A stretch of 64,000 bases of DNA from Eunapius fragilis. Lineage: Eukaryota; Porifera; Demospongiae; Spongillida; Spongillidae. Below the pieces are notes generated by a model that saw only the letters and a program-made list of their open reading frames with translations, was not told the origin of the DNA and ran no database searches. The DNA is taken from assembly GCA_963681505.1 (NCBI GenBank), contig OY811993.1, positions 710,562 to 774,561 on the forward strand. The letters are read 5' to 3'. Shown piece after piece: positions 10,576 through 64,000 of the stretch (position 1 is its first letter; each line of letters opens with the position of its first letter). Both the position numbers and the translations under genes were made by a program.

Positions 10576-10774
10576 TGATCGAGCCAGTACTGTACCAGGT
10601 TGCATTTGGAGCATCCAAGTCATGACGGCAACTTGGAAAAAAAGTTGTACCAGTCCTATAAAACAGCAGCCACAAAAGTGCAAAGGCTTTCATATCAAAA
10701 CATAGCCTGTTCCTATCAACTGGACTGGTGTTTGCTGGTTTGGTGTGTTGTTAATGTACAGGACTGGCGTGTTA

Positions 10775-11100
10775 CAAGCATGTACTGGACTGATGTGTTG
10801 TATGTACTGGACTGGTGTGTTGTATGTACTGGACTGGTGTGTTGTATATACTGGACTGGTGTGTCGTATGTACTGGACTGGTGTGTCGTATGTACTGGAC
10901 TGGTGTGTTGCATGTACTGGACTGGTGTGTTGTATGTACTGGACTGGTGTGTTGTATGTACTGGACTGGTGTGTTGTATGTACTGGACTGGTGTGTTATA
11001 TGTACTGGACTGATGTGTTGTATGTACTGGACTAGTGTGTTGGTCTGGTGTGTAGAAAGTTCTGTACAAGTGTGTTTTATGTACTGGACTGGTGTGTTCA
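10775..11100. repeat. 22-bp minisatellite, about 14 copies
   Basis: Unit TGTACTGGACTGGTGTGTTG plus TA, with few substitutions. Because 22 is not a multiple of 3, each strand gives nearly the same open peptide in all three frames. These are not genes. Confidence 0.95.
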
Positions 11101-19030: not shown

Positions 19031-20188
19031 TGTGGTAAAGAACATAATGTTCGTTCCAGTCCAAGATAGCACGTTATACATAGTAGTTGCCTTTCATTTG
19101 AGGATCACCTTTTAGCATCTATCTTTCTAAACTGATAGCAATATAGTTATGATGCATGAACAGTTCTGTATACTTAATGATTTCAGTTTGATCAAAAAAG
19201 TACTACCTGATAAGGTTATAAAATCTTGAATTTGTGGGTTTGATTATTTAATGAAGTTTAATAAACTGCTATTATGCCACATGACACCAATACAAATCTA
19301 TCCTAATTCAAAAATGTCATCATGACCCCTACTTTTAAACCACTGTGTGTGTGGGGGGGTGGAGGATTAGACATTGTAGTCAATAATCAATAATCGAATG
19401 TAGGGGTGTTCTTAACATGTACAGGACTGCTGTAGTGGTCAAACCAATATGTAATTTTGTATGATTGTGAAAAATCAGGCAATTTTTTAAATCCTTTTGG
19501 ATATCCCTTCAGGCTTAAAATGACCTACAGTATGACTACAATCCACACAGCCACACTGTAAACATAAGTATAGATACGTGTACGCGATTGTTCTAAATTA
19601 TGACGGGTGTAATATTCTTTAATGCATATGGCCAGCAAAGTAAAGTTTCATTGACTGATGGTTTACTGACTTATATCATGTAGAAGAAATGATACAGTAT
19701 ACAGAAAGAAATGTAAGTTTTTTCATGGTCAGATGGGAATGGTGTGTGGGTTGTATATACCAAGGATCACTGCACCTTGTGATGTTATAATCACACATGC
19801 CCTGCCTGTGTATACAGAAGTATTTTAGTTCATTCAATATGGTGATGTGAATCAGTGTGCATTGGTTTCATACTCAGACGTACAAATGTTTTATTTACCC
19901 TGAACTCTGTCGCTACCAGTCAGATGCAGGCAGTCATGTGACACTCCCACAGTTGTCAGATATTGTGCATAAATGGAATTATATTCCAAGCACTATTAAC
20001 GCTTCACTGGTTCTGTACGGTATGCATTCTGGTGCCGCTATTGAAAACTGTAAAGCTTAGTACACAGTGCTTTGCAATCCTCATAAATAGCTGATAGATT
20101 TCTTCATATTGTGGATTTGCAGCATGTCTTATATTTTTTAATAATGAAGCTGTTTAACGTTTACTTCTTCAATGGTGTCGCAGACTAG
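19031..20188. other. Non-coding interval, nothing recognised
   Basis: AT-rich DNA without convincing exons or repeats. A short frame at 19,857-20,060 was not identified. Confidence 0.45.
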
Positions 20189-20489
20189 CCCCAATGCCTG
20201 TAAAATTGGTACGATTTTTTCTAATGATAACAAGTCATTTTTAAAATACTTAATCATCATATATCGAAAAGAGCATACATTTGCATTAAATTGGCCTTAA
20301 AATCACAAAAGGTCATTGCACCGGTAATGTAACCATAATTTTACCATTTGTAATGAATGGAATTGTACGACATTTCGTACGATTCAACTTGTTGCGATTG
20401 ATGCACAAATGGAGGTTATTCACACTGAGGCATATCAATAATCTATATGATATGTCGTAGACATTATTATTGTCTTCCTCTAACACTCT

Positions 20490-20699
20490 TTACTCTGGCA
20501 CCATTTCATGATTGGCTTTACGTTTCCTTTTCCTGGACTGTGCTGATACTATTGCATTTTCTCTGTTAGCACATTTCTGGAGCTCAGAGGTCATTCTTCG
20601 TGTGAAATCCTTTACTATTTTAACAGAATCATGACACTTTTGAAAGCAAGTCTTTAAATTCTTTTGTCCTGTTGGACTCATTGTTTTGGCATGACACAT
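20490..20699 (-). CDS. Small basic, coiled-coil-like frame near the E1 end
   Basis: A 69-codon frame containing TRRMTSELQKCANRENAI and ending in an Arg/Lys-rich stretch, SRKRKRKANHEMVPE. It could be a C-terminal nuclear-localisation-type tail of the E1 transposase or a separate small protein. No family was recognised. Copy 2 does not reach this part, so conservation cannot be tested in this window. Confidence 0.25.
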   Translation of the reverse strand: MCHAKTMSPTGQKNLKTCFQKCHDSVKIVKDFTRRMTSELQKCANRENAIVSAQSRKRKRKANHEMVPE

Positions 20700-21099
20700 T
20701 GGGAAGATAACCTGTAGTTAGAATACGTATAAAATAAATTATACTTTATGAGCAGTGATATGAATTTTATAATTACCTTTGGAGCTTTGCACACAGTAGT
20801 TTGTTATGGCATGGATGTAATAAATACGTCTTAATGTTTCTTAGTCACTATTGTAATGCAATCCATTGCTTCGACGTAGAACACCATGATCAGAGTTCAA
20901 ATATCTCAGCCTTTTCTAATCTTTATTTGTGTCTTTCAACCTACACCTACTCAATATCAGCAGGATTAACATTGACCTTCACAGGCTATGGAGGATAAGC
21001 AATTTGCAACTTGTATTTCAACGCACATCTCAAGATAGATTGGTGTAAGGATCCTATCTTGTTTACTGCATTATGGATCTGTACAAGAGACATATATGT

Positions 21100-21440
21100 G
21101 TCATTTTTTTTCTCTATGTGACCTAGTTCGAAGAAGTACATGCACATTCCAAAGCATAGTCATAATCAATCTAATCCAGATAAATGCATATGGGTGCAGG
21201 CTCTTGAACATGGGCTTAACATCCTTTAGACATCTTGAAAATACATCAGTCATGCCCTTCAAGCAATTCCACATTATTATTACAGAGGGGGCAATGCGGA
21301 TAGCAGAGGTATAGGGTCTACCTCGTGCAATGATTGCTTCACAAAGTCCCTTGCATATATAAAAATTGCTAGCAAGAGTATCCGTATCGACGCAGCCACC
21401 ATAGCCACCTTCAGGTAATTTAGGAAGTGGAATGCTGTCC
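21100..21440 (-). pseudogene. E1 transposase, C-terminal segment
   Basis: The minus strand reads KLPEGGYGGCVDTDTL, then ICKGLCEAIIARGRPY, IAPSVIIMWNCLKG, TDVFSRCLKDVKP and IRLIMTMLWNVH. The pattern 'P...I..WN..KG..D..SR.LK' then 'W.RL..T.L.N.H' matches the C-terminal half of a large transposase family I know from oomycete and cnidarian genomes, whose database name I cannot give. The frame is open to a stop just beyond RTRSHREKK. It follows the nuclease-like segment directly, as expected for one continuous protein. Confidence 0.55.
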
Positions 21441-21561
21441 TATAATCAATGGAAAAAGTTACCAATTTCATTAATATTGTAATAAACTTACATCTAAAAT
21501 TCACTTTACACACTTACAAATCAGTGTTTTCAGTGTATGTAACCATGCACTCATTACAACA

Positions 21562-21906
21562 TCAGAAATATGAACTAATGAATGTAAATAATTCCACTTT
21601 TACTTCCAACCACATACAAGACATCTGAGAGACCACAAGTGACAGCATTAGGCAATATTTGAAATCTATGAGGTCCAACAGTTGTCCTGCGGATGTCTGA
21701 ATCAAAGTAACATTCCATGAATGATCCGTATTTTGATGTGCAGTTACAGCTTCATTGATTGTAGTAATAGAGACTTTTGTTTTAAACTCAACCAAAACTA
21801 ATTTTGTTGATATGCATCCTGGTAACTTAACATCTATTACACCATCTGGTGAGCAATAAATGTCTTTTTCTTTCATCAGTAAACCATATGTCTTGGTTTC
21901 ATGCAT
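21562..21906 (-). pseudogene. E1 transposase, PD-(D/E)XK (YqaJ-like) nuclease segment
   Basis: Residues 16-22 onward read CSPDGVIDV, then after about nine residues LVLVEFKTKVS. The D-G ... E-x-K signature (PDGV...VEFKTK) is that of the PD-(D/E)XK fold, most like YqaJ-type exonucleases. The remainder contains QLLDLIDFKYCLML and VVSQM..MWLEV, plausible structural strands. On the minus strand this block lies between N1 and the C-terminal segment, in the order DDE, nuclease, C-terminal block. Upstream, about 21,910-22,050, the same strand gives VLCLQGMLVNGMQ, probably part of the same protein. It was split from the DDE part by N1. Confidence 0.6.
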
Positions 21907-23085
21907 TTCAACTCTTCAACATGTTTATATAGAAAAGCAGGCATACCAGCCAGTGTCTTGCATTCCATTCACTAACATGCCCTGCAAACAGAGAACGTCT
22001 GAATCCAGTTTCCTCTTCTTTCTTGTATATAACCATGACTGCAAGCACGCGTTCTACAGTGCTTCTCACAAAGAGGGGGAAATGAGAATTTCTAGTGTTT
22101 TAGCCATATCTCTGTAACCAAACACGATGTAGAAAAACCAATTACATTTTTGGAATCAGCATGTATTTTTGTATCATCCTGTGAATACATGTTATGTGTT
22201 TTGTTTCAGGACCACAACACGTAACATAGGGTTAAACAATAGTTTTTGTTTATAACTCTTGAATGCAATGGAGTTAAGGCCTCAGATTTACAAAACAACT
22301 GCACCATCATAGTATGCATGTCCATGAGCAGTTTGATCGTTGCATGCCGCTAGTTATGGAGATCGGTTCAAGATTGTAAAAAATTGAAGGTGGGTAGCGG
22401 TTAATAAAAAAAACTTTTGAGGTAAGGTATAATTTTTTGTTAATTACATTGCAAAGTTTCTGTAGTTAATATATGGAATATTGTACACTTATCCTTCATT
22501 GTGATTGTAAGTTGCAATTTGTCATAGTTAAAAAGGATAGAAATTCTGATAATTGATGACATACGTATCAAAGCATGTCATTATACTGATGATGCGTTGT
22601 TTTGATTTTGTCGGAAATGTGATGAGATACTTTAAAACTGTATTTCACAGAGTAAAGAAGGCCTGTTCTACATAGACAAAACTGTGTTCTCAACAGGCGA
22701 GGCAGCGTTGGCTGTATGGCATTTCATCAACTGAATCAAATTTTGCATCATTGTACTTAATATGAAACGTACACGTACACTTATTTAACAAACATCAAGC
22801 CCTAAGTACATGTAGAATCAAAAACTCTTCTATGTGATTAATGCATTTTAACTTGCTTATCCACATCTTTCGCAGTTTATCCATTTCTATATGCTTGTTC
22901 ATAGTCTCTACAATAAAATACTTCTGAATTGTTGTTGTAGAACACATACTCACTCTTTCAGGCACAAATTTTCGTAGCTTTGTGATCCTTCCGTGCGCAT
23001 AAGCTCAAGTATGTTTTTTGGCAAAACACCAAAATCTTTCTATCAGACTTAATTCACAATTGTATTTTGGTATATGTAGGCATAA

Positions 23086-23540
23086 TTAAGTGCCTCTCAT
23101 TTCAATGTATTTTTTTTTTTGAAGCTTCATACCTTTGGCTTGTACATCAAGGAGTGCCATTGTTTGAATTTCTCCAGCCCACTCGGTATCCCTCATTAAT
23201 GGTTGCTTCCCTCCAGGATAAACATTAAGTAGATTGTCTGCCATTTTCCTGTGAGATGTTGTATTGTCAAATAAAAACAGTGCACGTGCAAAAGAATATT
23301 TGCTTTCAAATGTATCGACTGTCCTTTCCACTTGTTTCATCAACTTGTCATTATCAAAGTACCCATCCTTTTGTATTTCAAGAGAAACACGAGCTGAATG
23401 TCTTTCAAGAGTTAGAAAACCATCCACTTCTTCAATGAAGTCTGATATCGTGATTGACTGGCCAAGTGATTTCTGTTTAATAACACTGTTGTGTTCATCA
23501 GCCCAAAAGTATGATTGTCACAGTTAGCATAAAATGTGCT
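23086..23540 (-). pseudogene. N1 transposase, DDE-type catalytic fragment
   Basis: The frame reads ISDFIEEVDGFLTLERHSAR, then DGYFDNDKLMKQVE, FARALFLFDNTTSHRKMADN, VYPGGKQPLMRDTEW and AKGMKLQ. 'SDF', 'EGY..ND.L..QV', 'FDN..SHRK.A', 'PGGKQP.MRDT.W' and 'GMK' occur in this order in a widespread DDE-superfamily protein family that ends with a HCELN..IERVW motif. The FDN aspartate would be a catalytic residue. In copy 2 a degenerate IPTYNCELSLM follows. A poly-T/A slip after GMKLQ and missing N-terminal DNA-binding parts show it is dead. Confidence 0.65.
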
Positions 23541-24326
23541 TTCATCTTGTACATCTCTATTTAATGGTTTTTGTCCATTAACAATAATGGATTGGGGTTA
23601 CTTTTACATATATTAATGTTATTGAGTTCAGTCAATATTTCTCCCTGTCCTCTATTACATCTTCTGTTCATGCCATCAAAATACACTCCATTTTTTGTGG
23701 TGGATACGCTTGAAGCCAAGTTCACAGCCATATCGCAATAGTATTATATGCGATGATAATTTTCAGAATAAAGCAAGAGAGTTTGTACGCAATAACGCTT
23801 GCACTAAAAGAGAACCCAACCTATTTGTTTACTGAATGGGTGAAGGCTGATAACAGCAATTAAATTTCCACAGCAGTACCACGATCTGAGCTTAAGATAT
23901 GTTCAATATCATCATATGTTATGTTGGATAGGAGACATTTCATATATTGATGCAGTTATATACCCAATGGCACATTACTTTGGCTGAATGACCGACAACT
24001 GTGGCAGCCATTGTAGCAGCATCAGTTATATTTTTCCCCCACATCGTTATTGCCACAAACATTACAATCAAGGCAAACACTTTCAGCTCTACAAGTGTTT
24101 GTGTGCCTCCCCATGTAGTAGGTCAATAGGGTAACACAACTGTCAAAAAACACTTTTCTGAAAAAGATAGCACAAAGATGCATGTACATCATCCTTTTCG
24201 CAAACCTTTTTGGGTCTTGATGATCATCTCTGGACTATTTTTTCTAGCCCTTCCTTCGCCTTCCCCTTGCACAACTGCTCTTGTACAACCACAGGAATGT
24301 CTTCCACCTCCCAACTTTTGTGCTTT

Positions 24327-24405
24327 CTATTTCTGGTACCCCCTGATACATGTGTGCATGTATCAGGTAGGTTCTAAAAAGAACCAGTACCAGAAATAGA
24401 ATCAC
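24327..24405. repeat. Imperfect palindrome (hairpin) inside N1
   Basis: TCTATTTCTGGTAC...CTGATACATG pairs with CATGTATCAG...GTACCAGAAATAGA around a loop of a few bases, with an AGAACC/GGTTCT block in one arm. The same structure occurs in N1 copy 2 at about 61,670-61,742. A fold-back element or RNA hairpin is possible. Confidence 0.8.
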
Positions 24406-25639
24406 AGACTTGGAAACTGCTGCATGGGCCAGAAGCCATAATTGCATTATTGCAATAATCAGTTGTGACGTCAAAGTGGATGATAAAACCTTAACGTGTA
24501 CAAAATAATTAAAATTTCTATCCGATAATCGAATATTTAACTTTTGCAAATTGCAACATACGATAGCAATGAATGAGAAATGAGGCATGTGCCTTAGAGG
24601 ATGGTCATGCATCTCTTTGGTTGTAGAAGTGTTTGGGGGATGGGGCAATGAAGCTATCAATGTACTTTTGGCCATATCCAAAAAGGTAGCCACAACACTA
24701 TGTCGACCTCTGAATTAGGTTATGTCAGGCATCTACAGTCGCTTCAGCCTCACCCTCATGAGGCAGAATGCCAGAGCAATTTTGGCCAGATGTGTCTCAC
24801 CAAACACTTGCTGTGACTTATAGTTATTTGTAGTGCATATGTTTTGAATTAATGTATTTTGTACTATTAATTATTATGTATCTCCTTATCATTTTTTTGT
24901 TTTCATTAAAAAAAAAAAAGAAAAAAAAAAAGATAACAGTACAATGTTCTATATTATAACTACAGGGACTTTGCATTGTAGCGAACGAAGAATTAAACTA
25001 TACCTCAGAACATTTCTGGAGTTTTTTCCTTAACCGCTACCCACCTTCAATTTTTTACTATCTTTAACCAACCTCTACAACTAGAAGGCTTGCAATGATC
25101 AAACTGCTCAAGGACATGCAGACTATGATGGTGCAGTTGTGTTGAAATTTTGAAGCCTTAAGTCAGTTGCATTCTAGAATTGCTGTTTTAATTCTATGTT
25201 TCTTGTTGTGGTCCTGAAACGAAAACACATCATGTGACACAACATAAATTCACAGGATGATACAAAAATACATGCTGATTCCAAGCATGTAATTGGTTTT
25301 TCAATATTGTGTTTGGTTAAAGAGTTAGGGCTAAAAATAAATTAGAATCTCTCATTTTTCCCTCTCTTTGTGAGAAGCACTACACTTCGTTTTCAGCTGG
25401 AATGGATAAAGGTTTATCATGCACATGAAATGTTCCATCAAGCTGTATTGCTTCCTCCATAACTCTTTAATTTCCTTTCTTCTGGTTGCAAGGGTGGTAA
25501 TGGAAGGTTATTTTTTCTTTAATCTCACAAAGTTTTAGTTTCTGCAGGCATTGTATATCATAAACTCTTGCAGTATCAAAATCATGATCATTGGAGCATG
25601 CTGTTGAGTTACTGTCTTTTCTTAGACCTAAGGTATTTA

Positions 25640-26534
25640 TGTGTCACACGTATGGATGGATTACATCATCACTACGCTCTGAGTGGGATGATGTAATCCT
25701 GTCTTTACATTCATCATATTCATAATCCCATTCAAAAGGGTCTGTGTCTTCAGATGAACTTTGCATATGACATAGCTTTCCAGTTCCAGTTCTATAACAA
25801 AGTGATATTACAGTAGTTTCATTTCTGTTATTTAAAATGTGAAGCATAGTAAGCATTAGAATGACCATACAAGGGTATGTGCTTTCGTATAACTTTTGCC
25901 CTCTTGTTACCTTCTGTTTTAAAAGTATAAGGACCAATTTTTTATTCCACCTAGATGTAAACCTGCATCAGCAGCATCTGTTGTATTTTTTATTCCACTG
26001 TATCCTCGGTCAACAGCAATGATGTTAGAAAAACCATACTGCAATGCAACATTGAAACTTATGGCCTTTGCACGTTTGCATGCGATATTGAAAACTATTA
26101 CTCTCACTCTACAGTGATGATATCACATGAGCACAGATCACAGCACCAGTAGCAAATTAACACCACGCATCCTGCTGTGCACCATACAGCTTTCTGGGAT
26201 TATGCTTTCTAGTAAGGACCCTCTGTTGCATTTTAACTGCAGTTGATCGTCATCAGCTGAAAGAATAGTGAGACCCTTGTGGAAAAAAATGTCAACACAT
26301 GTTGACCAAAGATCTAAATGAAAGACAACAGTGTATAACACAAATAATTGTGGGCATCTTACCTGAGGCTGCAAAAGTTATCAAAGAATCATACATCATC
26401 TCTTCTCCCCACATATCACCAAAATCTTCCTTATTTGGAGAATATGATAAACCATGTAAGAACATTTTCCAAACTGAGTAATCCAAATCACGTGCCATGG
26501 GATACACGGAATGGTTCTCTTCATCAAAAAACAT
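25640..26534 (-). pseudogene. E1 transposase, N-terminal and DDE-like segments
   Basis: In protein order on the minus strand: MFFDEENHSVYPMARDLDY, WKMFLHGLSYSP and MMYDSLITFAASG; then GLTILSADDDQLQLKCNRG; then FSNIIAVDRGYSGIKNT, GLHLGG and PYTF; then RTGTGKLCHMQSSSEDTDP. DDDQL, DRGY and YR.GTGK in this order are hallmarks of a transposase family seen in oomycetes and cnidarians, where they supply acidic catalytic residues. A GTAAGA...CACAAG stretch after ITFAASG looks like an 87-bp intron, but its phases do not agree. Several frameshifts are present. N1 interrupts the gene shortly downstream, after LDGTFHVHDKPLSIP. Confidence 0.55.
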
Positions 26535-27354
26535 AGTAGGAGGAGCATTTATAGAAATGCATCAGAGTGACTGTCATGGAGCAAAGGTGACCAGGAAGAG
26601 AAGGGAGAGTTTACAGAGCATGACCCGATGAACAGGTGCCAAGAGTTGAGTCTAAGGAGGTCAGACGGTTGAAAGGGGTGCCATACAGTGAAAGGGTGAC
26701 AGTAAACCCTGTATCTGGGTCACCTGCATGTGAATAGCACCAGAAAATATAAAATGAGAGAAAAGTGTTGTAAAAGCATTTTTAAAGATAAAGATTTGCC
26801 ATTAATAATATCGTTGGGGTGTGCGAGCTAAGCGGTGGCGAAGCGGGTCCATAACAGTGACTTAAAACATAGCTCAATATCAGCCAAACTCATCACATCA
26901 TTTGTTCCCACACATGCTCCGCCTGAAGCTTCAACAAAGAGGTGGGAGGCACAAAAGGTTGTTATAATCTTCCAAGTTTTCTCCCTCAGGAATACCCAAC
27001 TTCATACGTTCTTTTTTCAAGGTTGTCTTATCATCAGAACGAATGTTATGTAGTGACTTCCTACATACATGATATTTACTTTAATTCTGTCAGGCCGAAC
27101 CCCAAGGTACGTGTAGTCATCTCGCGCTTCATCTTCCTCGTCACTGAAACTGTCCAAGACATCAATGGGCCCCAAAATGTCATTTTCCGCATCGTAAGAA
27201 GTAGTCAGCATCTACCTTGAGCATGGGGCCAACACTCACACAAAAGCTTGTTCTGTGAATGCTACACTTGAATCCAAAGAGGATGGCTTTGATGATCTAA
27301 AAAACGAGAGAATTTGCTTGCATGTTTTTCTGCTGAAAAATACCAAAAATCGTA

Positions 27355-27963
27355 GCTCTGCACTATTTGCGACATCCATCTAATCTGCCAGCCAAATGTG
27401 ATGGTTGTGGAGCTGATTTCACCCTCCAACATGCCCTAGACTGTAAGAAGGGGGGACTTGTTATACTACGCCACAATGAGATCCATGACTGCCTTGGTGA
27501 CCTTGCCAGTCAAGTGTGGCCCCAGGTTATAAAGGAGCCTATTGTCAATGAGGCTACTGCCACCTCAAGTGATCCAGGACTAAGGCTTGACCTGGGAATC
27601 AGAGGTGTTTGGCAACCACAGGTGGAGGCGTTGTTTGATGTCCGTGTCATAGACACTGACGCCCCATCACACTGCCATCGAGCACCTAATGCCATTCTTG
27701 AGTCAAGCTCATTGGAGAAGAAAAGAATGTACAAAAAGGAAGTTGAAGACAGAAGAGGCACCTTCACCCCATTTGTCCTTTCTGTGGACGGACTACTACA
27801 CAATGAGGCTAGTCACTTCCTAAAGCACATGGCCACTGCTCTGTCTTCCAAGTGGGACAAAGCCTATTCCATTACCAGCAGCTATGTCAGATCACAGCTT
27901 GCTTTTGCAGGGCCTCTGTCTCAGAGGATCCCGCACCAAATGGAGAAGTGGGCTGGGGTTTGA
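27355..27963 (+). pseudogene. 3' end of a second non-LTR-type retroelement ORF
   Basis: The frame enters from the E1 boundary and ends at a TGA at 27,961-27,963. Residues 11-26 carry C-x2-C-x7-H-x3-C, then RHNEIHD. LRLDLGIRGVWQPQ leads to ALFDVRVIDTDAP, then KKRMYKKEVEDRR and FTPFVLSVDG. This is the architecture of 1635-2384 with low identity, so the two belong to different families of the same group. A non-coding tail of about 140 bp, T-rich rather than poly-A, follows to about 28,105. The reverse transcriptase part is absent. Its 5' truncation point coincides with the truncated end of E1 copy 1, so its insertion may have removed that end. Confidence 0.75.
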
Positions 27964-28770: not shown

Positions 28771-29869
28771 AAATTCAAAAGGACACCTCCTAGAGGTCAG
28801 ATGTTATTGATATCATTGTGCTCTGTGTTTGATGCATTGTACTCAGTGTACCCTTCAAAATAAATTTAGAGTTGATTTAATCTCCTTGATGATGTTATAA
28901 TGAATGATGTTCGATGTTTAAACTTTATTATTGTCTAAGGGTACATAATTTCTTTGTCATCAGCATAATTACTATGTACCATTACACAACTGCAATGCTT
29001 ATCTCACCAGTTCAAAACACAAGAGCACGTGATCACAACTTGGCAGTAACCTCCAGACTTAACAGTGGAACCAGTAGTCACCAAACAGGAGCAAAAGAAC
29101 CAATAGTCGCCAAACAGGAACAGAGGGAATAGCAACCTTTAGACTGAACAGAAGAACCAAAATAGGAAGGGAGAAGGGTGAAAAGAAAGGGGGAGAGAAA
29201 GAGGGAGGAGGGAGGGATGGAGAGGGAGGAGGGACGAGGAGGGTTGAAGAATGAAGCAATGGGATTAAATACATATACAGTGAGATACAAAAGTGGTAAT
29301 GAGTGCAGAGAGAGAGGATGGTGACCAAACAGCTAGGAAGGTGGCCTTGTGTGCAAAGGAGAGATTGTCATGTGTGTGTATGTGTGTGTATGTGTGTGTG
29401 TACGTGTATGTGTATGTGTATGTGTATGTATAAAACTAACAAAGGTGATCCATTAACAATTTTAACAAAAAAAAAATTAAGCTACTTATATAAACCTATG
29501 CTTGCATAGCAACGACTCGTTTCATGTCAAAACTGCTTTTGCCATGGAGGCCTATTAGATTACAAGGCTTAGCTAGCCAGGGTACAAAACAGTGCTCTTG
29601 ACCCAGGTCCCATCTCAGCGATAACGTCTGGTAGCAAATATATTTTTACACTGAACCACGCCCACCCGACACAGACAAAACTCGCGTTGTTTGAACAGAA
29701 ATGGACGAGGCCTAAATTCCAGCAACCAAAAAGGGCCAACTGCACAAGGCTGACAAGACAATAATTCAAGCTTTGTACAGACAAAGATGCTGATACGGCC
29801 TACCTAGCCTAGCAGCCTGTGTACAAGCTAACGGCATACAGTACATACACTCTGACCAAACATCCATAA
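28771..29869. repeat. Direct duplication, unit 1
   Basis: From AAATTCAAAAGGACACCTCC to CATACACTCTGACCAA this unit matches 30,382-32,219 in the same orientation at high identity, apart from length changes in the second unit. It includes a short minisatellite (CCAAACAGGA.CAGA.GAACCAATAG, about 29,065-29,160), a purine-rich block and a GT tract at 29,369-29,428. Frames through it are low-complexity and not genes. Confidence 0.9.
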
Positions 29870-30381: not shown

Positions 30382-30524
30382 AAATTCAAAAGGACACCTC
30401 CTAGAGGTCAGATGTTATTGATATCATTGCGCTCTGTGTCTGATGCATTGTATTCAGTGTACCCTTCAAAATAAAATAGAGTTAATTTAATCTCCTTGAT
30501 GATGTTATTATGAATGATGTTTAA

Positions 30525-31067
30525 CACGCGGTTTACAGCAGATGAGGGGAAATATTGGGGAATATATAATATTCATAATTCCCTCCTATAGATTTTTTTC
30601 TAAGCTAAACATGTTTAATAATACTCCAATCATTATAGATGAAATTGGAAAAGTAAAGAATCAGCAGGCATATACAATTGTCGTATTGTAACCTTTAAAC
30701 GCCACTTCATTATAGTTTTAACGATGTGCCTCAGCATTCAAGGTACAGTTCCGATTTACACTATAGCCTATACTAAATAAATGGATGCAAAAGCGAATGT
30801 TATAAGAAACATTTTTATACACCGAAAACCAATACAGTGGTATAAGTAGTGTGATCGACCAGGAATTACATAGAAAAACAAAGGACACCTGGCGCAACAT
30901 GTTTGCGGAATTGTCCAACAATAGGAGCTTGTATATAACTCCATAGGGCAGTCGCAAATGTTTTAAATATGAAAAACTGCAAGAATAACCATTCAAACGA
31001 CTAGGAGGGAATTATTCCCCAAAATAATAATAATCAAGATCTCCCCGCGTCTGTCGTAAACCGCGTG
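30525..31067. mobile_element. 543-bp MITE with TIRs of about 65 bp
   Basis: The ends are CACGCGGTTTAC.GCAGA and its complement. The left flank is TTAA (30,521-30,524) and the right flank is TTAC. Unit 1 of the duplication, at about 28,919, has the uninterrupted site GATGTTTAAACTTTATT. This empty site fits a TTAA (piggyBac-like) or TA (Tc1/mariner-like) duplication with one later mutation. There is no coding capacity. Confidence 0.85.
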
Positions 31068-31679
31068 TTACACTTTATTATTGTCTAAGGGTAAATAACT
31101 TCTGCCTTTTGTCATCAGCATAATTACTACATACCATATACTACATTACACAACCATGATGCTTATCTCACCAGTTCAAATATCAAGAGCTCGTGATCAC
31201 GATTTGGCAGTAACCTCCAGACTTACCAGTGGAACCAGTAGTCACCAAACAGGAACAGAAGAACTAATAGTTACCAAACAGGAAAGAAGAATCAGTAACC
31301 TTCAGACTTAACAGTGGAACCAAACAGGAACAGAAGAACCAATAGTTACCAAACAGGAAAGAAGAACCAGTAACCTTCAGACTTAACAAGTCGCCAAACA
31401 GGAGCAAAGAAAGCAATAGTCGCCAAACAGGAACAGAGGGAATAGCAACCTCCAGACTGAACAGAAGAACCAAAATAGGAAGGGAGGAGGGTGAAAAGGA
31501 AGGGGGAGAGAAAGAGGGAGGAGGGAGGGATGGAGAGGGAGGAGGGATGAGGGTTGAAGAATGAAGCAATGGGATTAAATACATATACAGTGAGATACAA
31601 AAGTGGTAATGAGTGCAGAGAGAGGATGGTGACCGAACAGCAGGGAAGGAGGCCATGTGTGAAAAGGAGAGATCACCAT

Positions 31680-31788
<109 letters not shown>

Positions 31789-32251
31789 ACTAACACAGGT
31801 GATCCGATCCATTAACAATTTTAAAACTAATAAAAGGAACCAAAAAAAAAATTAAGCTACTTATATAAACCATTGGCTTGGATAGCAACGACTCGTTTCA
31901 CGTCAAAACTGCTTTCGCCATGGAGGTCTATTAGGTTATAAGGCTTAGCTAGCCGGCGTACAGAACAGTGCTCTTGACCCAGGTCCCACTTCAGCTATTT
32001 TTACACTGAACCGCGACCACCCGACACAGACAAAACTCGCTTTGTTTTTAACAGAAACGGAAAAGGCCTAAATTCCTGCAACCAAAAAAAGAGCCAACTG
32101 CACAAGGGGCTGAGAAGACAATGTTTCAAGCTTTGTACGGACAGAGACGCTGATATGGCCTAGCTAGCCTAGCAGCCTGTGTACAAGCTAACGGCGTACA
32201 GTGCATACACTCTGACCAACAATAAACAACACAACACACCCCAATGCGCAC

Positions 32252-42745: not shown

Positions 42746-43385
42746 GTATGTCTACAACGCTGTTTCGTGCCACTTTATGTTTTCAAAGCTACCTGGGGGT
42801 CATTCTATATCGATTCAACACACATAAGTTTCATTTTTGGAAGCATTTTTGTGGATGAGTGCAGGCTATTACCCTGTGTATATTTATATATTATACTAAC
42901 TTTTAAATATCAATTGTTTGTAAGTTATTAGGTGTGAAAAAGTTGACCACATATGTAAACTATGCTAATTATCTTTGCGAGCGTTACATCAGTAGCGATG
43001 GTTATTTTTCCGGGCGTACAGAACATAATGACTGTCACGCTGTTTAATAAAAAAAGGAACTTCATAATTGAGCACAACGGAAAAAATGCTTTTCGAGCGT
43101 AATAGTTGCCACCATTTAAAAATACACACTTTTTTTTTGGTTTTTATTTTATTTTTATGAAAGGCTATCTGTTTGCTTGTTGTGTTTCCAATCGCATGAC
43201 GGAACGCCAAGCCGTTACTAAACTACATCGTATCGAAGCGCTCGTGTTTTAGTCTTAAAGAAACCCTTCCAATGTGTTAATTGTGCACTAAACAAACTTA
43301 TAATTGGCCACACATAATGAATTTAATTACTTGATGTACAAAGAATATTCCCCTTTTCAATGGCTGCAAACTAAATAAGTCTGTC

Positions 43386-44598
43386 TCACCCTCTCCCTCA
43401 TAGTCCACCATATAACCCTCTTCCCTCATGGTCCACCATGTCACCCTCCTCCCTCATGGTCCATCTGTGTCACCCTCTCCCTGGTAGACCATGAGGGAGA
43501 GGGTGGCATAGTGGACCATGAGGGAGAGGTGAGGAGGAGGGTGATATGGTAGACCATGTGGGAGGGGTGAGGGAGGAGGGTGACAAGGTGGATCATAAGG
43601 GAGGGGTAAGGGAGGAGGGTGACATGGTGGGCCATGAGGGAGGAGGGTGACATGGTGGGCCATGAGGGAGGAGGGTGACATGGTGGGCCATGAGGGAGGA
43701 GGGTGACATGGTGGGCCATGAGGGAGGAGGGTGACATGGTGGGCCATGAGGGAGGAGGGTGACATGGTGGACTATGAGGGAGAGGGTGACATGATGGACC
43801 ATGAGGGTGGAGGGTAACATGATGGACCATGAGGGAGGAGGGTGGCATGGTGGACCATGAGGGAGAGGGTGGCATGGTGGACCATGAGGAGAGGTGAGGG
43901 AGGAGGGTGACAAGGTGGATCATAAGGGAGGGGTAAGGGAGGAGGGTGACATGGTGGACCATGAGGGAGGGGTGAGGGAGGAGGGTGACAAGGTGGATCA
44001 TAAGGGAGGGGTAAGGGAGGAGGGTGACATGGTGGACCATGGTGGAGGAGGGTTTACATGGTGGGCCATGAGGGAGGAGGGTGACATGGTGGACTATGAG
44101 GGAGAGGGTGACATGATGGACCATGAGGGTGGAGGGTAACATGATGGACCATGAGGGAGGAGGGTGGCATGGTGGACCACGAGGGAGAGGGTGGCATGGT
44201 GGACCATGTGGGAGGGGTGAGGAGGAGGGTGACATGGTAGACCATGTGGGAGGGGTGAGGGAGGAGGGTGACAAGGTGGATCATAAGGGAGAGGTAAGGG
44301 AGGAGGGTGACATGGTGGGCCATGAGGGAGGAGGGTGACATGGTGGGCCATGAGGGAGGAGGGTGACATGGTGGACTATGATGTCACCCTCCTCCCTCAT
44401 GGTCCATCATGTCACCCTCCTCCCTCATGATCCACCACGTCACCCTCCTGTGCTGTGTAGCATATGTGTTAATGTGGAAGGTTGACATGATGGACCATGA
44501 GGGAGAAGGGTGGCATGGTGGACCATGAGGGAGAGGGTGACATGTTGGACCATGAGGGAAGAGGGTTATATGGTGGATTATGAGCGAGAGGGTGAGAC
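43386..44598. repeat. Minisatellite with units in both orientations, core of the foldback element
   Basis: Unit about 24-28 bp: GGTGACATGGTGGGCCATGA + GGGAGGA, with a higher-order block of about 400 bp repeated (43,540-43,920 and 44,090-44,370). The edges (43,386-43,490 and 44,380-44,450) run in the opposite direction. Its open frames (His/Pro/Ser- or Gly/Glu/Asp-rich) are repeat artefacts. Confidence 0.95.
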
Positions 44599-45749
44599 CA
44601 TAGATATTAGAGTAGAAGGATTGGAAACGGAGCACGTGAGCCATAGAGCCCTGTACATTGCAAAGTGCGGACTCCGCGATGCTGCTAATTAGATGCATTG
44701 ACGCCTCGCCCCTCTTGAGGAGGAAGTAAGTTGAGAGCTTAGTAAAATCTGACTGAAGAAAACGATAGCACAAAATGCGTACATTCGGGCAAACTTGTCG
44801 CCATATTTATAGCCCTTTTAGAACCCGAGATACAGAATTTGGCGGGCTTACAGCTTTTTTAACAACTAACCGATACAACTCCCCTAAACTTCCCTTTTTT
44901 ATAAATAAGTAGCATGGCCAGATGCAGCACAAAGTTTTACGTACGGTGAGGTGTGTTGGAGGCGTTTAGGTTGGAGGGTTTTAGAGAAACTCCACATTTT
45001 ACGTTTTTGACATCGCCATGAACTAACCGATGAAACTACCCTGGCAAAACTTTTATCTCATATCCAGTACTTGTTTCAGATAGCTACATCAATTCTACAT
45101 ATGGTAGTACCATTTGCTACGTAACTATGCTCTGCTTTTGTCGTAAAAAAAAAAAGCGGGTGGTCCATTTTTCTGTTGTATAAATGGCCTAACATCTGGA
45201 TCATAGATTATTTAGACATCAGGACCGCCCTCATGTTTTCCAAAGCCCTCCGAGGCCTTCACTGGTCTTTTAGGCGTCTTTAACGTTTCGTCATGGGGTT
45301 GGCCATCGATGTCATTGTCAAGAAGCTGGATTCCAGGAATGAAGCGGATCGCTGTAACGTCTACTTTACTGGACTGGGTCATGCAGTTACGTTTTTATTT
45401 GCGTGCTTTTTTCCTTGTATGCTCGTGATGTCCAGCAACACCTTTTTTTTGTTTGCATGGAGAAATTCTGAGGGCTCTATGTAAGGTTTGGGTAGGTGTG
45501 ATTGGCATGTGTCGTTGACTACTACTTCGTTCACAAGCTCATGCTCTGATCTTTTTAGTTCTGAAAGATATGAAGGGCTAGCGCATTTGGTAACTAAGTT
45601 TTGGTTAGGCTCCGTTGTCATCGGTTCCAGAAGCTCTTGCCTTCATTTCAAATATGGTAAGCGGTCTGAGTACGAGGAGCATCGAGGAGTCGGCGCGTGA
45701 AGCAGTGTTAATTGGGTCCGTTTCCATTCCTTCTACTCTAATATCTATG
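44599..45749. mobile_element. Element B: 1.15 kb TIR element of the GGATTGG family, inserted in the foldback arm
   Basis: The ends are CATAGATATTAGAGTAGAAG (then GATTGGAAACGGA.CACGTGAGCCATAG) and the complementary right end. GTGAGAC flanks it on both sides (44,592-44,598 and 45,750-45,756). The opposite arm of the foldback keeps the unfilled site (complement GTCTCAC at about 43,382-43,388), which confirms the duplication. A partial type-A end (CATAGATTATTTAGACATC) lies inside at 45,205. No transposase was recognised. Confidence 0.85.
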
Positions 45750-46330
45750 GTGAGACAGACTTGTTTAGTCATTGAAAAGGGGAATATTCTTTGTACATCA
45801 AGTAATTAAATTCATTTTGTGTGGCCAATTATAAGTTTGTTTAGTGCACAATTAACACATTAGAAGGGTTTCTTTAAGACTAAAACACGAGCGCTTTGAT
45901 GCGATGTAGTTTAGTAACGGCTTGGCGTTCCGTCTTGCGATTGGAAACACAACAAGCAAACAGATAGCCTTTCATTAAAATAAAATAAAAACCAAAAAAA
46001 AAGTGTGTATTTTTAAATGGTGGCAACTATTACGCTCGAAAAGCATTTTTTCCGTTGTGCTCAATTATGAAGTTCCTTTTTTTATTAAACAGCGTGATAG
46101 TCATGACGTTCTGTACGCACGGAAAAATAACCATCGCTACTGCTGTAACGCTCGCAAAGATAATTAGCATAGTTTACATATGTGGTCAACTTTTTCACAC
46201 CTAATAACTTACGAACAATTGATATTTAAAAGATAATACATAGATATACACAGGGTAATAGCCTGCACTCATCCACAAAAATGCTTCCAAAAATGAAACT
46301 TATGTGTGTTGAATCGATATAGAATGACCC

Positions 46331-54704: not shown

Positions 54705-55022
54705 TTCCATGGTGACATATCCATGGTGACATAATGATGACATATCCATGGTGACATCCATGGTGGCATATCCATGGTGACATATCCATGATGACATATC
54801 CATGGTGACATATCCATGGTGACATACATGATGACATATCCATGGTGACATCCATGGTGGCATATCCATGGTGACATATCCATGATGACATATCCATGGT
54901 GACATATCCATGGTGACATATCCATGGTGACATATCCATGATGACATATCCATGGTGACATATCCATGGTGAGTGACATATCCATGGTGGCATATCCATG
55001 GTGACATCCATCCATGGTGACA
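54705..55022. repeat. 14-bp minisatellite, about 20 copies
   Basis: Unit CCATGGTGACATAT, with ATGATG variants and shorter 11-bp units. The 14-bp length makes all three minus-strand frames encode the same peptide repeat with Cys-His-His-Gly-Tyr. The minus-strand frame at 54,573-55,229 that includes it is not supported as a gene. Confidence 0.95.
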
Positions 55023-58403: not shown

Positions 58404-59517
58404 CCAAAATGCAATTAAGAGCCCACACAGGCAGTTAAATAAACACTATTAGCTGCTAGACCACTTTATGTGTGGAGAAACAGTGGCTTCCAAAGCAGAC
58501 TGAAGATCAATTAGCCAAAGGAGTTGTGCTATGTTGGAAGAGTTAAGTACACTGCAAAGAACTGTTTCCGCAATCTATTTTAGACTACCCAGAGGGCTGA
58601 TTAAATTGACTAATAAGGTATCCCCAACGCTTTTATTGTACGAAAATTGGTACGATTGAACTAACTCATATTTATGGTATTTTAACAATTGTACGATTTT
58701 TGGTATGTTTCAGCAGAAAAACATGCAAGCAAATTATCTCGTTTTTTAGGTCATCAAAGCCATTCTCTTTGGATTCAAGTGTAGTATTCACAGAACAAGC
58801 TTTTGTGTGAGTGTTGGCCCCATGCTCAAGGTAGATGCTGACTACTTCTTACGATGCGGAAAATGACATTTTGGGGCCCATTGATGTCTTGGACAGTTTC
58901 AGTGACGAGGAAGATGAATCTCGAGATGACTACACGTATCTTGGGGTTCGGCCTGACAGAATTAAAGTAAATATCATGTATGTAGGAAGTCAATAGATAA
59001 CATTCGTTCTGATGATAAGACAACCTTGAAAAAAGAACGTATGAAGTTGGGTATTCATGAGGGAGAAAATTTGGAAGATTATAACAACCTTTTGTTGCCT
59101 CCCTCCCACCTCTTTGTTGAAGCTTCAGGCGGAGCATGTGTGGGAACAAATGATGTGATGAGTTTGGCTGATATTGAGCTATGTTCTAAGTCACTGTTAT
59201 GGACCCGCTTCGCCACCGCATAGCTCGCACACCCCAACGATATGATTAACGGCAAATCTTTATCTTTAAGAATGCTTTTACAACACTTTTCTCTCCTTTT
59301 ATATTTTCTGGTGCTACTCACATGCAGGTGACCCAGATACAGGGTTCACTGTCACCCTTTCACTGTATGGCACCCCTTTCAACCGTCCGACCTCCTTAGA
59401 CTCAACCTCTTGGCACCTATTCATCGGGTCATGCTCTGTAAACTCTCCCTTCTCTTCCTGGTCACCTTTGCTCCATGACAGTCACTCTGATGCATTTCTA
59501 TAAATGCTCCTCCTACT

Positions 59518-60671
59518 ATGTTTTTTGATGAAGAGAACCATTCCGTGTATTCCATGGCACGTGATTTGGATTACTCAGTTTGGAAAATGTTCTTACATGG
59601 TTTATCATATTGTCCAAATAAGGAAGATTTTGGTGATATGTGGGGAGAAGCGATGATGTATGATTCTTCGATAACTTTTGCAGCCTCAGGTAAGATGCCC
59701 ACAATTATTTGTGTTGTACACTGTTGTCTTTCATTTAGATCTTTGGTTAACATGTGTTGACATTTTTTTCCACAAGGGTCTCACTATTCTTTCAGCTGAT
59801 GACGATCAACTGCAGTTAAAATGCAACAGAGGGTCCTTACTAGAAAGCATAATCCCAGAAAGCTGTATGGTCCACAGCAGGATGCGTGGTGTTAATTTGC
59901 TACTGGTGCTGTGATCTGTGCTCACGTGATATCATCACTGTAGAGTGACAGTAATAGTTTTCAATATCGCATGCAAACGTGCAAAAGGCCATAAGTTTCA
60001 ATGTGGCATTGCAGTACGGTTTTTCTAACATCATTGCTGTTGACCGAGGATACAGTGGAATAAAAAATACAACAGATGCTGCTGATGCAGGTTTACATCT
60101 AGGTGGAAAAAAAATTGGTCCTTATACTTTTAAAACAGAAGGTAACAAGAGGGCAAAAGTTATACGAAAGCACATACCCTTGTATGGTCATTCTAATGCT
60201 TACTATGCTTCACATTTTAAATAACAGAAACGAAACTACTGTAATATCACTTTGTTATAGAACTGGAACTGGAAAGCTATGTCATATGCAAAGTTCATCT
60301 GAAGACACAGACCCTTTTGAATGGGATTATGAATATGATGAATGTAAAGACAGGATTACATCATCCCACTCAGAGCGTAGTGATGATGTAATCCATCCAT
60401 AGGTGTGACACATAAATACCTTAGGTCTAAGGAGAGACAGTAACTCAACAGCATGCTCCAATGATCATGATTTTGATACTGCAAGAGTTTATGATATACA
60501 ATGCCTGCAGAAACTAAAACTTTGTGAGATTAAAGAAAAAATAATCTTCCATTACCACCCTTGCAACCAGAAGAAAGGAAATCAAACAGTTATGGAGGAA
60601 GCAATACAGCTTGATGGAACATTTCATGTGCATGATAAACCTTTATCCATTCCAGCTGAAAACGAAGTGTA
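59518..60671 (+). pseudogene. E1 copy 2 transposase, N-terminal and DDE-like segments
   Basis: Same blocks as copy 1: MFFDEENHSVYSMARDLDY and ITFAASG at 59,518-59,689, then a possible 87-bp intron (59,690-59,776, CAG|GTAAGA...CACAAG|GGT, phases disagree), SADDDQLQLKC, ALQYGFSNIIAVDRGYSG, GPYTFKTEGNKRAKVIRKH, RTGTGKLCHM and MEEAIQLDGTFHVHDKPL. Frame changes between blocks show decay. N1 interrupts it at 60,671 (TGTA target). Confidence 0.55.
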
Positions 60672-63600
60672 GTGCTTCTCACAAAGAGAGGGAAAAATGA
60701 GAGTTTCTAATTTATTTTTAGCCCTAACTCTTTAACCAAACACAATGTTGAAAAACCAATTACATGTTTGGAATCAGCATGTATTTTTGTATCATCCTGT
60801 GAATTTATGTTGTGTCAAGTGATGTGTTTTCGTTTCAGGACCACAACATGAAACATAGAATTAAAACAGCAATTATTTGATAACTCTAGAATGCAACGGA
60901 CTTAAGGCTTCAAAATTTCAACACAACTGCACCATCATAGTCTGCATGTCCTTGAGCAGTTTGATCATTGCAAGCCTCTAGTTATGGAGGTTGGTTAAAG
61001 ATAGTAAAAAATTGAAGGTGGGTAGCGGTTAAGGAAAAAACTCCAGAAATGTTCTGAGGTAAGGTTTAATTCTTCGTTCGCTACAATGCAAAGTCCCTGT
61101 AGTTATAATATAGAACGTTGTACTTTTATCATTTTTATTTTTCTTATTTTTTCTAATGAAAACAAAAAAATGATAAGGAGATACATAATAATTAATAGTA
61201 CAAAAAACATTAATTTAAAACATAAGCACTACAAATAACTATAAGTCACAGCAAGTGTTCGGTGAGACACATCTGGCCAAAATTGCCCTGGCATTCTGCC
61301 TCATGAGGGTGAGGCTGAAGCGACTGTAGATGCCCGACATAACCTAATTCAGAAGTCGACATAGTTTTGTGGCTACCTTTTTGGATATGGTCAAAAGTAC
61401 ATTGATAGCTTCATTGCCCCATCCCCCAAACACTTCTACAACCAAACGGATGCATGACCATCCCCTAAGGGCACATGCCTCATCATTTCTCATTCATTGC
61501 GATCGTATGTTGCAATTTGCAAAAGTTAAATATTCGATTATCGGATAAAAATTTTAACTTTTTTTGTACACGTTAAGGTATTATCATCCACTTTGACGTC
61601 ACAACTGATTATTGTAAAAATACAATTATGGTTTCTGGCCCATGCAGCAGTTTCCAAGTCTGTGATTCTATTTCTGGTACTGGTTCTTTTTAGAACCTAC
61701 CTGATACATGCACACATGTATCAGGGGGGTACCAGAAATAGAAAGCACAAAAGTTGGGAGGTGGAAGACATTCCTGTGGTTGTACAAGAGCAGTTGAGCA
61801 AGGGGAAGGCCAAGGAAGGGCTAAAAAAAATAGTCCAGAGATGATCATCAAGACCCAAAAAGGTTTGCGAAAAGGATTATGTACATGCATCTTTGTGCTA
61901 TCTTTTTCAGAAAAGTGTTGTGTTACCCTATTGACCTACTACATGGTGAGGCACACAAACACTTGTAGAGCTGAAAGTGTTAGTCTTGATTGTAATGTTT
62001 GTGGCAATAACAATGTGGGGGAAATATATAACTGATGCTGCTACAATGGCTGCCACAGTTGTCGGTCATTCAGCCAAAGTAATATGCCATTGGGTATATA
62101 ACTGTGTCAATATATGAAATGTCTCCTATCCAACATAACATATGATGATATTGAACATATCTTAAGCTCAGATCGTGGTACTGCTGTGGAAATTTAATTG
62201 CTGTTATCAGCCTTCACCCATTCAGTAAACAAATAGGTTGGGTTCTCTTTTAGTGCAAGCGTTATTGCGTACAAACTCTCTAGCTTTATTCTGAAAATTA
62301 TCATCGCATATAATACAATTGGGATATGGCTGTGAACTTGGCTTCAAGTGTATTCACCACCAAAATGGAGTGTATTATGATGGCATGAACAGAAGATGTA
62401 ATAGAGGACAGGGAGAAATATTGACTGAACTCAATAACATTAATATATGTAAAAGTAACCCCAATCCATTATTGTTAATGGACAAAAACCATTAAATAGA
62501 GATGTACAAGATGAAAGCACATTTTATGCTAACTGTGACGAATCATACTTTTGGGCTGATGAACACAACAGTGTTATTAAACAGAAATCACTTGGCCAGT
62601 CAATCACGATATCAGACTTCATTGAAGAAGTGGATGGTTTTCTAACTCTTGAAAGACATTCAGCTCGTGTTTCTCTTGAAATACAAAAGGATGGGTACTT
62701 TGATAATGACAAGTTGATGAAACAAGTCGGAAGGACAGTTGATACATTTGAAAGCAAATATCCTTTTGCACGTGCACTGTTTTTATTTGACAATACACCA
62801 TCTCACAGGAAAATGGCAGACAATCTACTTAATGCAGATGTCATGAATGTTTATCCTGGAGGGAAGCAACCATTAATGAGGGATACCGAGTGGGCTGGAG
62901 AAATTCAAACAATGGCACTCCTTGATGGACAAGCCAAAGGTATGAAGCTTCAAAAAAAAAAAAAAAACATTGAAATGAGAGGGCACTTATGCCTACATAT
63001 ACCAACATACAATTGTGAATTAAGTCTGATGTAAAGATTTTGGTGTTTTGCCAAAAAACATACTCGAGCTTATGCGCACGGAAGGATCACGAAAATTTGT
63101 GCCTGAGGGATTGAGTATGTGTTCTACAACAACAATTCAGAAGTATTTTATTGTAGAGACTATGAACAAGCATATAGAAATGGATAAACTGGGAAAGATG
63201 TGAATAAGCAAGTTAAAATGCATTAATCACATAAAAGAGTTTTTGATTCTACATGTACTTAGGGATTAATGTTTGTTAAATAAGTGTACGTGTACGTTTC
63301 ATATTAAGTACAACGATGCAAAATTTGATTCAGTTGATGAAATGCCATACAGCCAACGCTGCCTCGCCTGTTGAGAACACAAATTTGTCTATGTAGAACA
63401 GGCATTCTTTACTCTGTGAAATACAGTTTAAAAGTATCTCATCACATTTCCGACAAAATCAAAACAACGCATCATCAGTATAATGACATGCTTTGATACG
63501 TATGTCATCAATTATCAGAATTTCTATCCTTTTTAACTTCGACAAATTGCAACTTACAATCACAATGAAGGATAAGAGTATAATATTCCATATATTAACT

Positions 63601-64000
63601 ACAGAGACTTTGCAATGTAATGAACAAAAAATTATACCTTACCTCAAAAGTTTTTTTATTAACCACTACCCACCTTCAATTTTTTACAATCTTGAACCGA
63701 TCTCCATAACTAGCGGCATGCAACGATCAAACTGCTCATGGACATGCATACTATGATGGTGCAGTTGTGTTGTAAATCTGAGGCCTTAACTCCATTGCAT
63801 TCAAGAGTTATAAACAAAAACTATTGTTTAACCCTATGTTACTTGTTGTGGTCCTGAAACAAAACACATCACATGTATTCACAGGATGATACAAAAATAC
63901 ATGCTGATTCCAAAAATGTAATTGGTTTTTCTACATCGTGTTTGGTTACAGAGATATGGCTAAAAAACTAGAAATTCTCATTTTCCCCTCTTTGTGAGAA
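60672..64000 (+). mobile_element. N1, copy 2 (partial at the window end)
   Basis: Starts GTGCTTCTCACAAAGAGAGG after TGTA, and the window ends inside its opposite terminus (CCTCTTTGTGAGAA). The internal order equals copy 1 reversed: long TIR, the GAGGCAGAATGCCAGGGCAA-type insert near 61,270, the hairpin at 61,670, the transposase remnant, and the second TIR from about 63,330. Confidence 0.85.
62520..63034 (+). pseudogene. N1 copy 2 transposase, DDE-type catalytic fragment
   Basis: The upstream frame reads NCDESYFWADEHNSVIKQK, then LGQSITISDFIEEVDGFL; the main frame has DGYFDNDKLMKQV, LFLFDNTPSHRKMADNLLNA, VYPGGKQPLMRDTEWAGEIQ and GMKLQ, then an A15 slip and IPTYNCELSLM. The last motif is the decayed form of the HCELN.IE end of the family. 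This copy keeps four residues (NADVM-type) that copy 1 lost, so it is the slightly better preserved one. Confidence 0.65.

Follow-up and report, generated by a model that had tools for sequence, protein, structure and literature searches.

The window analysed here is a stretch of 64,000 nucleotides of the sponge Eunapius fragilis (contig C23, positions 710562 to 774561, of a 219-Mb genome in 24 contigs) and it contains E1, which is very probably a decayed transposon of the piggyBac superfamily whose family transposase carries a nested PD-(D/E)XK nuclease of the lambda-exonuclease/YqaJ type. This level of confidence covers both the identity and the architecture of the element, the architecture being read from sequence and from the predicted structure of relatives. 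In the family, the chain is predicted to run from an acidic N-terminus through a helical dimerisation and DNA-binding domain (DDBD), an RNase H core with the first and second catalytic aspartates (D1 and D2), strands of the piggyBac insertion-domain type and the nuclease to the helix with the third catalytic aspartate (D3) and a zinc finger. The nuclease appears to be nested at the place of the insertion domain, and often to contain in turn a SAP DNA-binding motif.

The reading frame of the window copy of E1 is disrupted at many places. Its protein blocks were located with a profile hidden Markov model (A1) of 13 proteins, all from other genomes, which was searched against the six-frame translation of the window (2132 stretches, each 20 amino acids or longer), with matches listed at E<=1. 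All 10 matches fall within E1 copies, six in E1 and four in a second copy of the element (Table 1). The six in E1 are collinear, with their coordinates on the minus strand decreasing along the profile. The best of them is the D3 block (E 9e-23), while the other five lie between E 3e-4 and 5e-3, and the nuclease block alone gives E 5e-4 against the A1 profile. With the DRGY motif of D2 lying between these matches, the order of the E1 motifs on one strand is as the sequence-only reading had described it. The QRTPDWF lobe of the nuclease is lost in the window copy, kept in the copy on C19, and kept with a change in the copy on C10. A Pfam scan of 10 pieces (nine of the E1 family, that is one from the window and eight from other copies, and one of N1, an element inserted into E1) returned no DDE, piggyBac or YqaJ match, and single E1 pieces gave nothing useful when searched against Pfam and PDB sequences. 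A match of the C-terminal tail to HrpB7 (E 4e-4), which is under the HrpB7 cut-off, was rejected as a low-complexity match.

A protein query built from the E1 copies led to diverged families in the same genome. Copies with the nuclease block in a different gene or on a different strand were looked for, and the block order was found to be kept on one strand in four C23 copies and in the copies on C14, C3 and C16, with the nuclease core itself unmatched by the E1-derived query in the C3 and C16 copies. In the C10 copy (L018) about 180 bp around D1 is inverted, this block alone, and the D2, nuclease and D3 blocks are ordered on one strand. The E1 copies on C23 have common flanking sequence, which suggests the duplication of one insertion, and the copies on C19, C10 and C7 sit elsewhere. 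In the C14 copy (L052), a 345-codon frame runs from D1 through D2 and the insertion strands to the first nuclease lobe (QRTADWFLLCKF); a stretch like SAP, the nuclease core (SLDGV..VVEIKTR) and a tail with the zinc finger follow in other frames, and the D3 region is damaged. On C2, L058 reads for 773 codons without a stop and, after one TAG, for a further 453 codons in the same frame that include the zinc finger. The 773-codon frame contains D1, D2 and the E/D/E/K set of the nuclease. L059, on C1, is similar to L058 but broken.

At positions 992-4675 of L058, this diverged member of the family is near-intact, with its single in-frame TAG. Terminal inverted repeats bounded by TTAA were not found around it within the 5.2 kb examined, and L058 may for this reason be immobile or host-adopted.

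Relatives were also found in protein databases. A search with the C14 composite returned one protein, P0001 from Phytophthora megakarya, with 25% identity over 87%. With P0001 as query, at least 13 proteins were obtained, P0001 among them, and a profile search gave at least 29; among the matches listed, 18 are named Phytophthora, three are labelled Phyca11 and eight have no organism label, one of these (P0029) matching a portion of the L052 frame exactly. The Phytophthora entries come from gene prediction and are not proven transcripts, and several are incomplete. In the predicted proteins P0001, P0002 and P0004, D1, D2, the nuclease and D3 lie within one chain. Together with the L058 frame, these chains support the earlier proposal that one transposase joins a DDE-like core and a PD-(D/E)XK nuclease. 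The continuous frame with both folds that it anticipated is present in these relatives; the accompanying profile matches are strong by fold and weak by Pfam.

In an alignment of 11 sequences, the motifs follow the order D1 (xDD), D2 (DRGY or DRAY), insertion strands, QRTPDWF-like lobe, SAP, G-x-x-x-E, S-x-D (11/11), E-x-K (10/11), HRxQ-LH and D3. The insertion strands contain RxGxG in most rows, and the D3 helix N-x-x-K-x-G-x-D is present in most rows; at any of these motifs an individual row may be gapped. When residues were counted over 33 sequences, gaps excluded, the transposase triad was kept at D1 in 29 of 31, at D2 in 28 of 29 and at D3 in 10 of 10, the L052 residue among these ten being probably a chance alignment, because the D3 region of L052 is damaged. 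In the nuclease, D and K are each kept in 16 of 16 sequences and E in 15 of 16. In the GxxNE motif, E is kept in 19 of 22; E1 is aligned with R there, and a nearby GHVSE stretch may, by eye, be its counterpart.

The spacing between D2 and D3 is 479-560 residues in seven complete members (P0001, P0002, P0004, P0011, E1, L058 and L059, the last three as composites), and it is 348 and 490 residues in the damaged P0013 and L052. The SAP motif is above the Pfam cut-off in 7 of 20 sequences; L058 has Rho_N instead, and in E1 the motif is unrecognisable. A C-terminal cysteine-rich zinc finger was found by its Cys pattern in four of the 33 sequences (P0003, P0011, L058 and L059), many other relatives being truncated, and Pfam named no cysteine-rich finger in these four. 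The same pattern matched P0013 outside the C-terminus, the zinc finger of L052 was seen by eye, and for E1 there is only a trace in L018.

The superfamily, which the sequence-only reading left open, is most likely piggyBac. As in 6x67 and 9c0f, the RNase H core in the predicted structure of relatives lies inside a helical DDBD. The predicted nuclease fold is PD-(D/E)XK of the lambda-exonuclease type. At the level of sequence profiles, PF13843 is above cut-off in 3 of 20 sequences (P0005, P0010 and P0028), by the N-terminal part of the model only, and PF09588 is matched by 2 of 7 nuclease segments with a best E of 0.04, under the curated cut-off; one nuclease segment matched UPF0102 (E 0.009). 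Against PDB sequences, a profile of the transposase only gave no match, and one of the nuclease only gave as its sole match the mimivirus R354 nuclease, which is weak (E 0.36-0.37).

The termini of the family begin CCC. Left ends of the sister family on C14 were searched with up to three mismatches anywhere in the pattern, TTAA included, which makes the counts lower bounds, and TTAA flanks the insertion at 8 of the 9 left ends found. The C14 copy has TTAA at both ends (TTAACCCCGGTGCC and GGCACCGGGGTTAA), and its flanks differ from those of the other copies; the C3 copy ends TAAA and TTAA, and the C2 right end is TTAA. The four left ends found for E1 read TTAA, TTAT, CTAT and GTAT, with GCAT in addition in L014, and the four right ends, read inward, TTAG, TTAG, CTAG and CTAG, with CTAA in addition in the C10 copy. 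The target sites of E1 itself are worn, and TTAA would be the ancestral form of the CTAG that adjoins the window copy.

The same target site and the same kind of nuclease occur in KolobokE, a DDE transposon of the TTAA-duplicating Kolobok lineage that encodes a lambda-exonuclease-like PD-(D/E)XK nuclease (PMC9587614, in the part of the paper available). However, KolobokE has its nuclease downstream of the transposase domain, whereas that of the E1 family is between D2 and D3. Kolobok ends are 5'-RR and those of the E1 family 5'-CCC, the Kolobok C/DxxH signature is unconserved in the E1 family (its best column, which falls inside the nuclease, holds in 4 of 8 sequences), the third acidic residue is D and not E, and the fold match is to piggyBac. 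With terminus, signature and nuclease place all speaking against it, a Kolobok identity was rejected and is very unlikely. An ISL2EU identity was also rejected, given the one chain found here and the TTAA flanks of the sister family, as opposed to a separate YqaJ open reading frame (ORF) and an AT duplication. A false fusion, produced by the chance stacking of two unrelated elements of which one brought a DDE gene and the other a nuclease gene, would be compatible with a window copy that is interrupted by other insertions. Nonetheless, the same block order recurs in several copies, in the open 773-codon frame and in the deposited proteins of other species, and this explanation was rejected as having a negligible probability.

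The role of the nuclease within a piggyBac-type element is a different question. In the sections of PMC7351741 available, the piggyBac insertion domain comes after the fifth RNase H strand and contacts the flanking hairpin and the target DNA, so that a nuclease nested at this place should sit beside flanking DNA. In the mechanism that we propose, the DDD site would cut the transposon ends and rejoin them at TTAA in the piggyBac fashion, the nested nuclease would trim or resect the flanking donor DNA and in this way steer the repair of the donor site, and the SAP motif would help to hold the flanking donor DNA. The trimming or resection is suggested by the lambda-type exonuclease fold and the kept active site, and the mechanism as a whole is plausible, at slightly less than even confidence. 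Two other roles compete with this mechanism and leave the architecture as it is. The main rival is a nuclease that acts like TnsA of Tn7, cutting the 5' strand at the ends, either in place of the piggyBac hairpin step or as a backup to it. The conservation of both active sites in the E1 family fits such a role, and in the text available of PMC8188705 TnsAB is a natural fusion of an endonuclease and a DDE integrase whose cut-and-paste transposition needs TnsA. On the other hand, the nested fold is nearest to lambda-type exonucleases (in a comparison without TnsA), and piggyBac alone cuts both strands via a hairpin, as reported in the accessible part of PMC7351741; we consider the TnsA-like role unlikely. 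Less likely again is a nuclease fold that is structural only, as an enlarged DNA-binding insertion domain. This would agree with the binding of target and hairpin DNA by the piggyBac insertion domain at the equivalent place (PMC7351741, as far as available), but it is rather improbable in view of the catalytic nuclease residues being kept in nearly all sequences. Going back to trimming or resection by the nested nuclease, a more tentative possibility is that the sponge and oomycete sequences form an undescribed piggyBac clade whose transposase works with two active sites, in which the nuclease nested in the RNase H domain may cut or resect the flanking strand as part of the transposition reaction, without reliance on the seamless hairpin pathway.

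E1 is on the minus strand and its right end is exactly at 20189, the start of the terminal repeat CCCCAATGCC.. (CCCC..). The left end of the window copy is cut and adjoins another sequence; the left terminal repeat, CCCCAATGC.. or CCCCAACGC.., is reached in L014, L015, L017 and L020. A 208-codon frame at 27337-27963 (+) adjoins the truncated left end, and may be the end of a reverse transcriptase protein of a retroelement without long terminal repeats, which it resembles. The element is interrupted twice, by N1 and by a smaller insert of about 280 bp, both with approximate limits (Table 1). N1 is about 3.3 kb long, with terminal inverted repeats of 25 bp (96%) and long subterminal arms, and it is missing in the C19 and C10 copies (L016 and L018), which both read straight through that site. 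Its ORF at 23086-23517 (-), DNTTSHRKMAD..PGGKQPLMRDTEW, had no Pfam match and may be a fragment of N1's own transposase. The insert of about 280 bp is common to L014 and L020 and missing in L015, L016, L017 and L018.

Elsewhere in the window, the region 42797-46330 holds a minisatellite between two inverted repeat arms; the arms measure about 470 and 98 nt, are 97-98% complementary and are separated by about 2.4 kb. Other minisatellites are found at 10734-11085 (unit of about 22 nt), 51578-51966 (about 30), 52455-52692 (about 30) and 54720-54990 (about 14). Two nearby sets of stretches, at 28771-29859 and 30382-32219, are 86-97% identical and have the appearance of a local duplication.

Table 1. 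Features of E1 and associated insertions in the window (profile intervals refer to A1).
Feature	Position	Strand	Basis
Target site duplication remnant, here CTAG	20185..20188		flank of E1 right end
Right terminal inverted repeat of E1, CCCCAATGCCTGTAAAATTGGTACG inward	20189..20213	-	terminal repeat comparison
Transposase C-terminal region, basic tail	20490..20717	-	ORF; likened to L052 tail by position and eye
D3 block (WN..KG..D..SR; WNHLKGMTDVLSR in L014) and helices after it	21131..21436	-	profile 738-833, E 9e-23
HRxQ-LH motif region and final nuclease-fold strands	21581..21679	-	profile 675-707, E 7e-4
PD-(D/E)XK nuclease core, SPDGV..LVEFKTK	21733..21909	-	profile 591-651, E 5e-4
N1, later nested element with own terminal inverted repeats, outside E1 proper	22058..25381		copy comparison
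YRTGTGK strands, taken as piggyBac insertion domain strands	25677..25841	-	profile 358-412, E 5e-3; equivalence inferred
D2 block, IIAVDRGYSG	25922..26122	-	ORF and alignment; no profile match of its own
D1 block, LSADDDQLQL	26228..26305	-	profile 198-223, E 9e-4
Helical N-terminal domain, DDBD equivalent	26370..26543	-	profile 133-192, E 3e-4
Insert of about 280 bp	26573..26852		copy comparison
N-terminal acidic region of transposase	27017..27211	-	ORF; also in L014 and L018
Truncated left end of window E1 copy	27354		comparison with other copies
Second E1 copy, inverted, extending beyond window end	58692..64000	+	repeats and profile search

The E1 family is like the piggyBac superfamily (Trichoplusia ni piggyBac, piggyBat; Pfam DDE_Tnp_1_7) in its predicted fold, in the three catalytic D with a G-x-D helix for D3, in the TTAA flanks of the sister family, in the CCC termini and in the C-terminal cysteine-rich zinc finger of some relatives. 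The distance between D2 and D3 is 101 residues in piggyBac (D346 and D447; PMC7351741, available in part) and several times larger in the E1 family, the excess being the nuclease and SAP. A few piggyBac families carry a KolX-like protein, which is a different accessory part (PMC9587614, in its available part). ISL2EU, of the PHIS superfamily, had been named in the sequence-only reading as a case of a YqaJ-like nuclease in a separate protein, and the separate ORF is confirmed by the portion of PMC4482050 available, together with further differences from the E1 family in the AT target duplication and the THAP and helix-turn-helix domains. Lambda exonuclease, YqaJ, LHK-exo and mimivirus R354 differ in being free-standing enzymes, unnested in a transposase. 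The TnsAB fusion is tandem, not nested. Tn7-like TnsAB is alike in having the endonuclease and the DDE integrase in one chain and differs in being a bacterial, RNA-guided system (PMC8188705, part of the text). In a literature search of partly available sources, with Repbase, supplements and most subscription journals outside it, no listed title or opening of an abstract describes a piggyBac transposase with a nested nuclease. Three eukaryotic transposon groups would now combine a DDE/DDD transposase and a nuclease of one kind, separate in ISL2EU, downstream in KolobokE and nested within the catalytic fold in the E1 family, which suggests a shared difficulty of cut-and-paste transposition that this nuclease overcomes. 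The nested form has two sites in one chain that can be inactivated singly, making the role of the nuclease directly testable. Given that piggyBac is a widely used tool for genome engineering, there is also practical interest in a natural relative that has a second active site.

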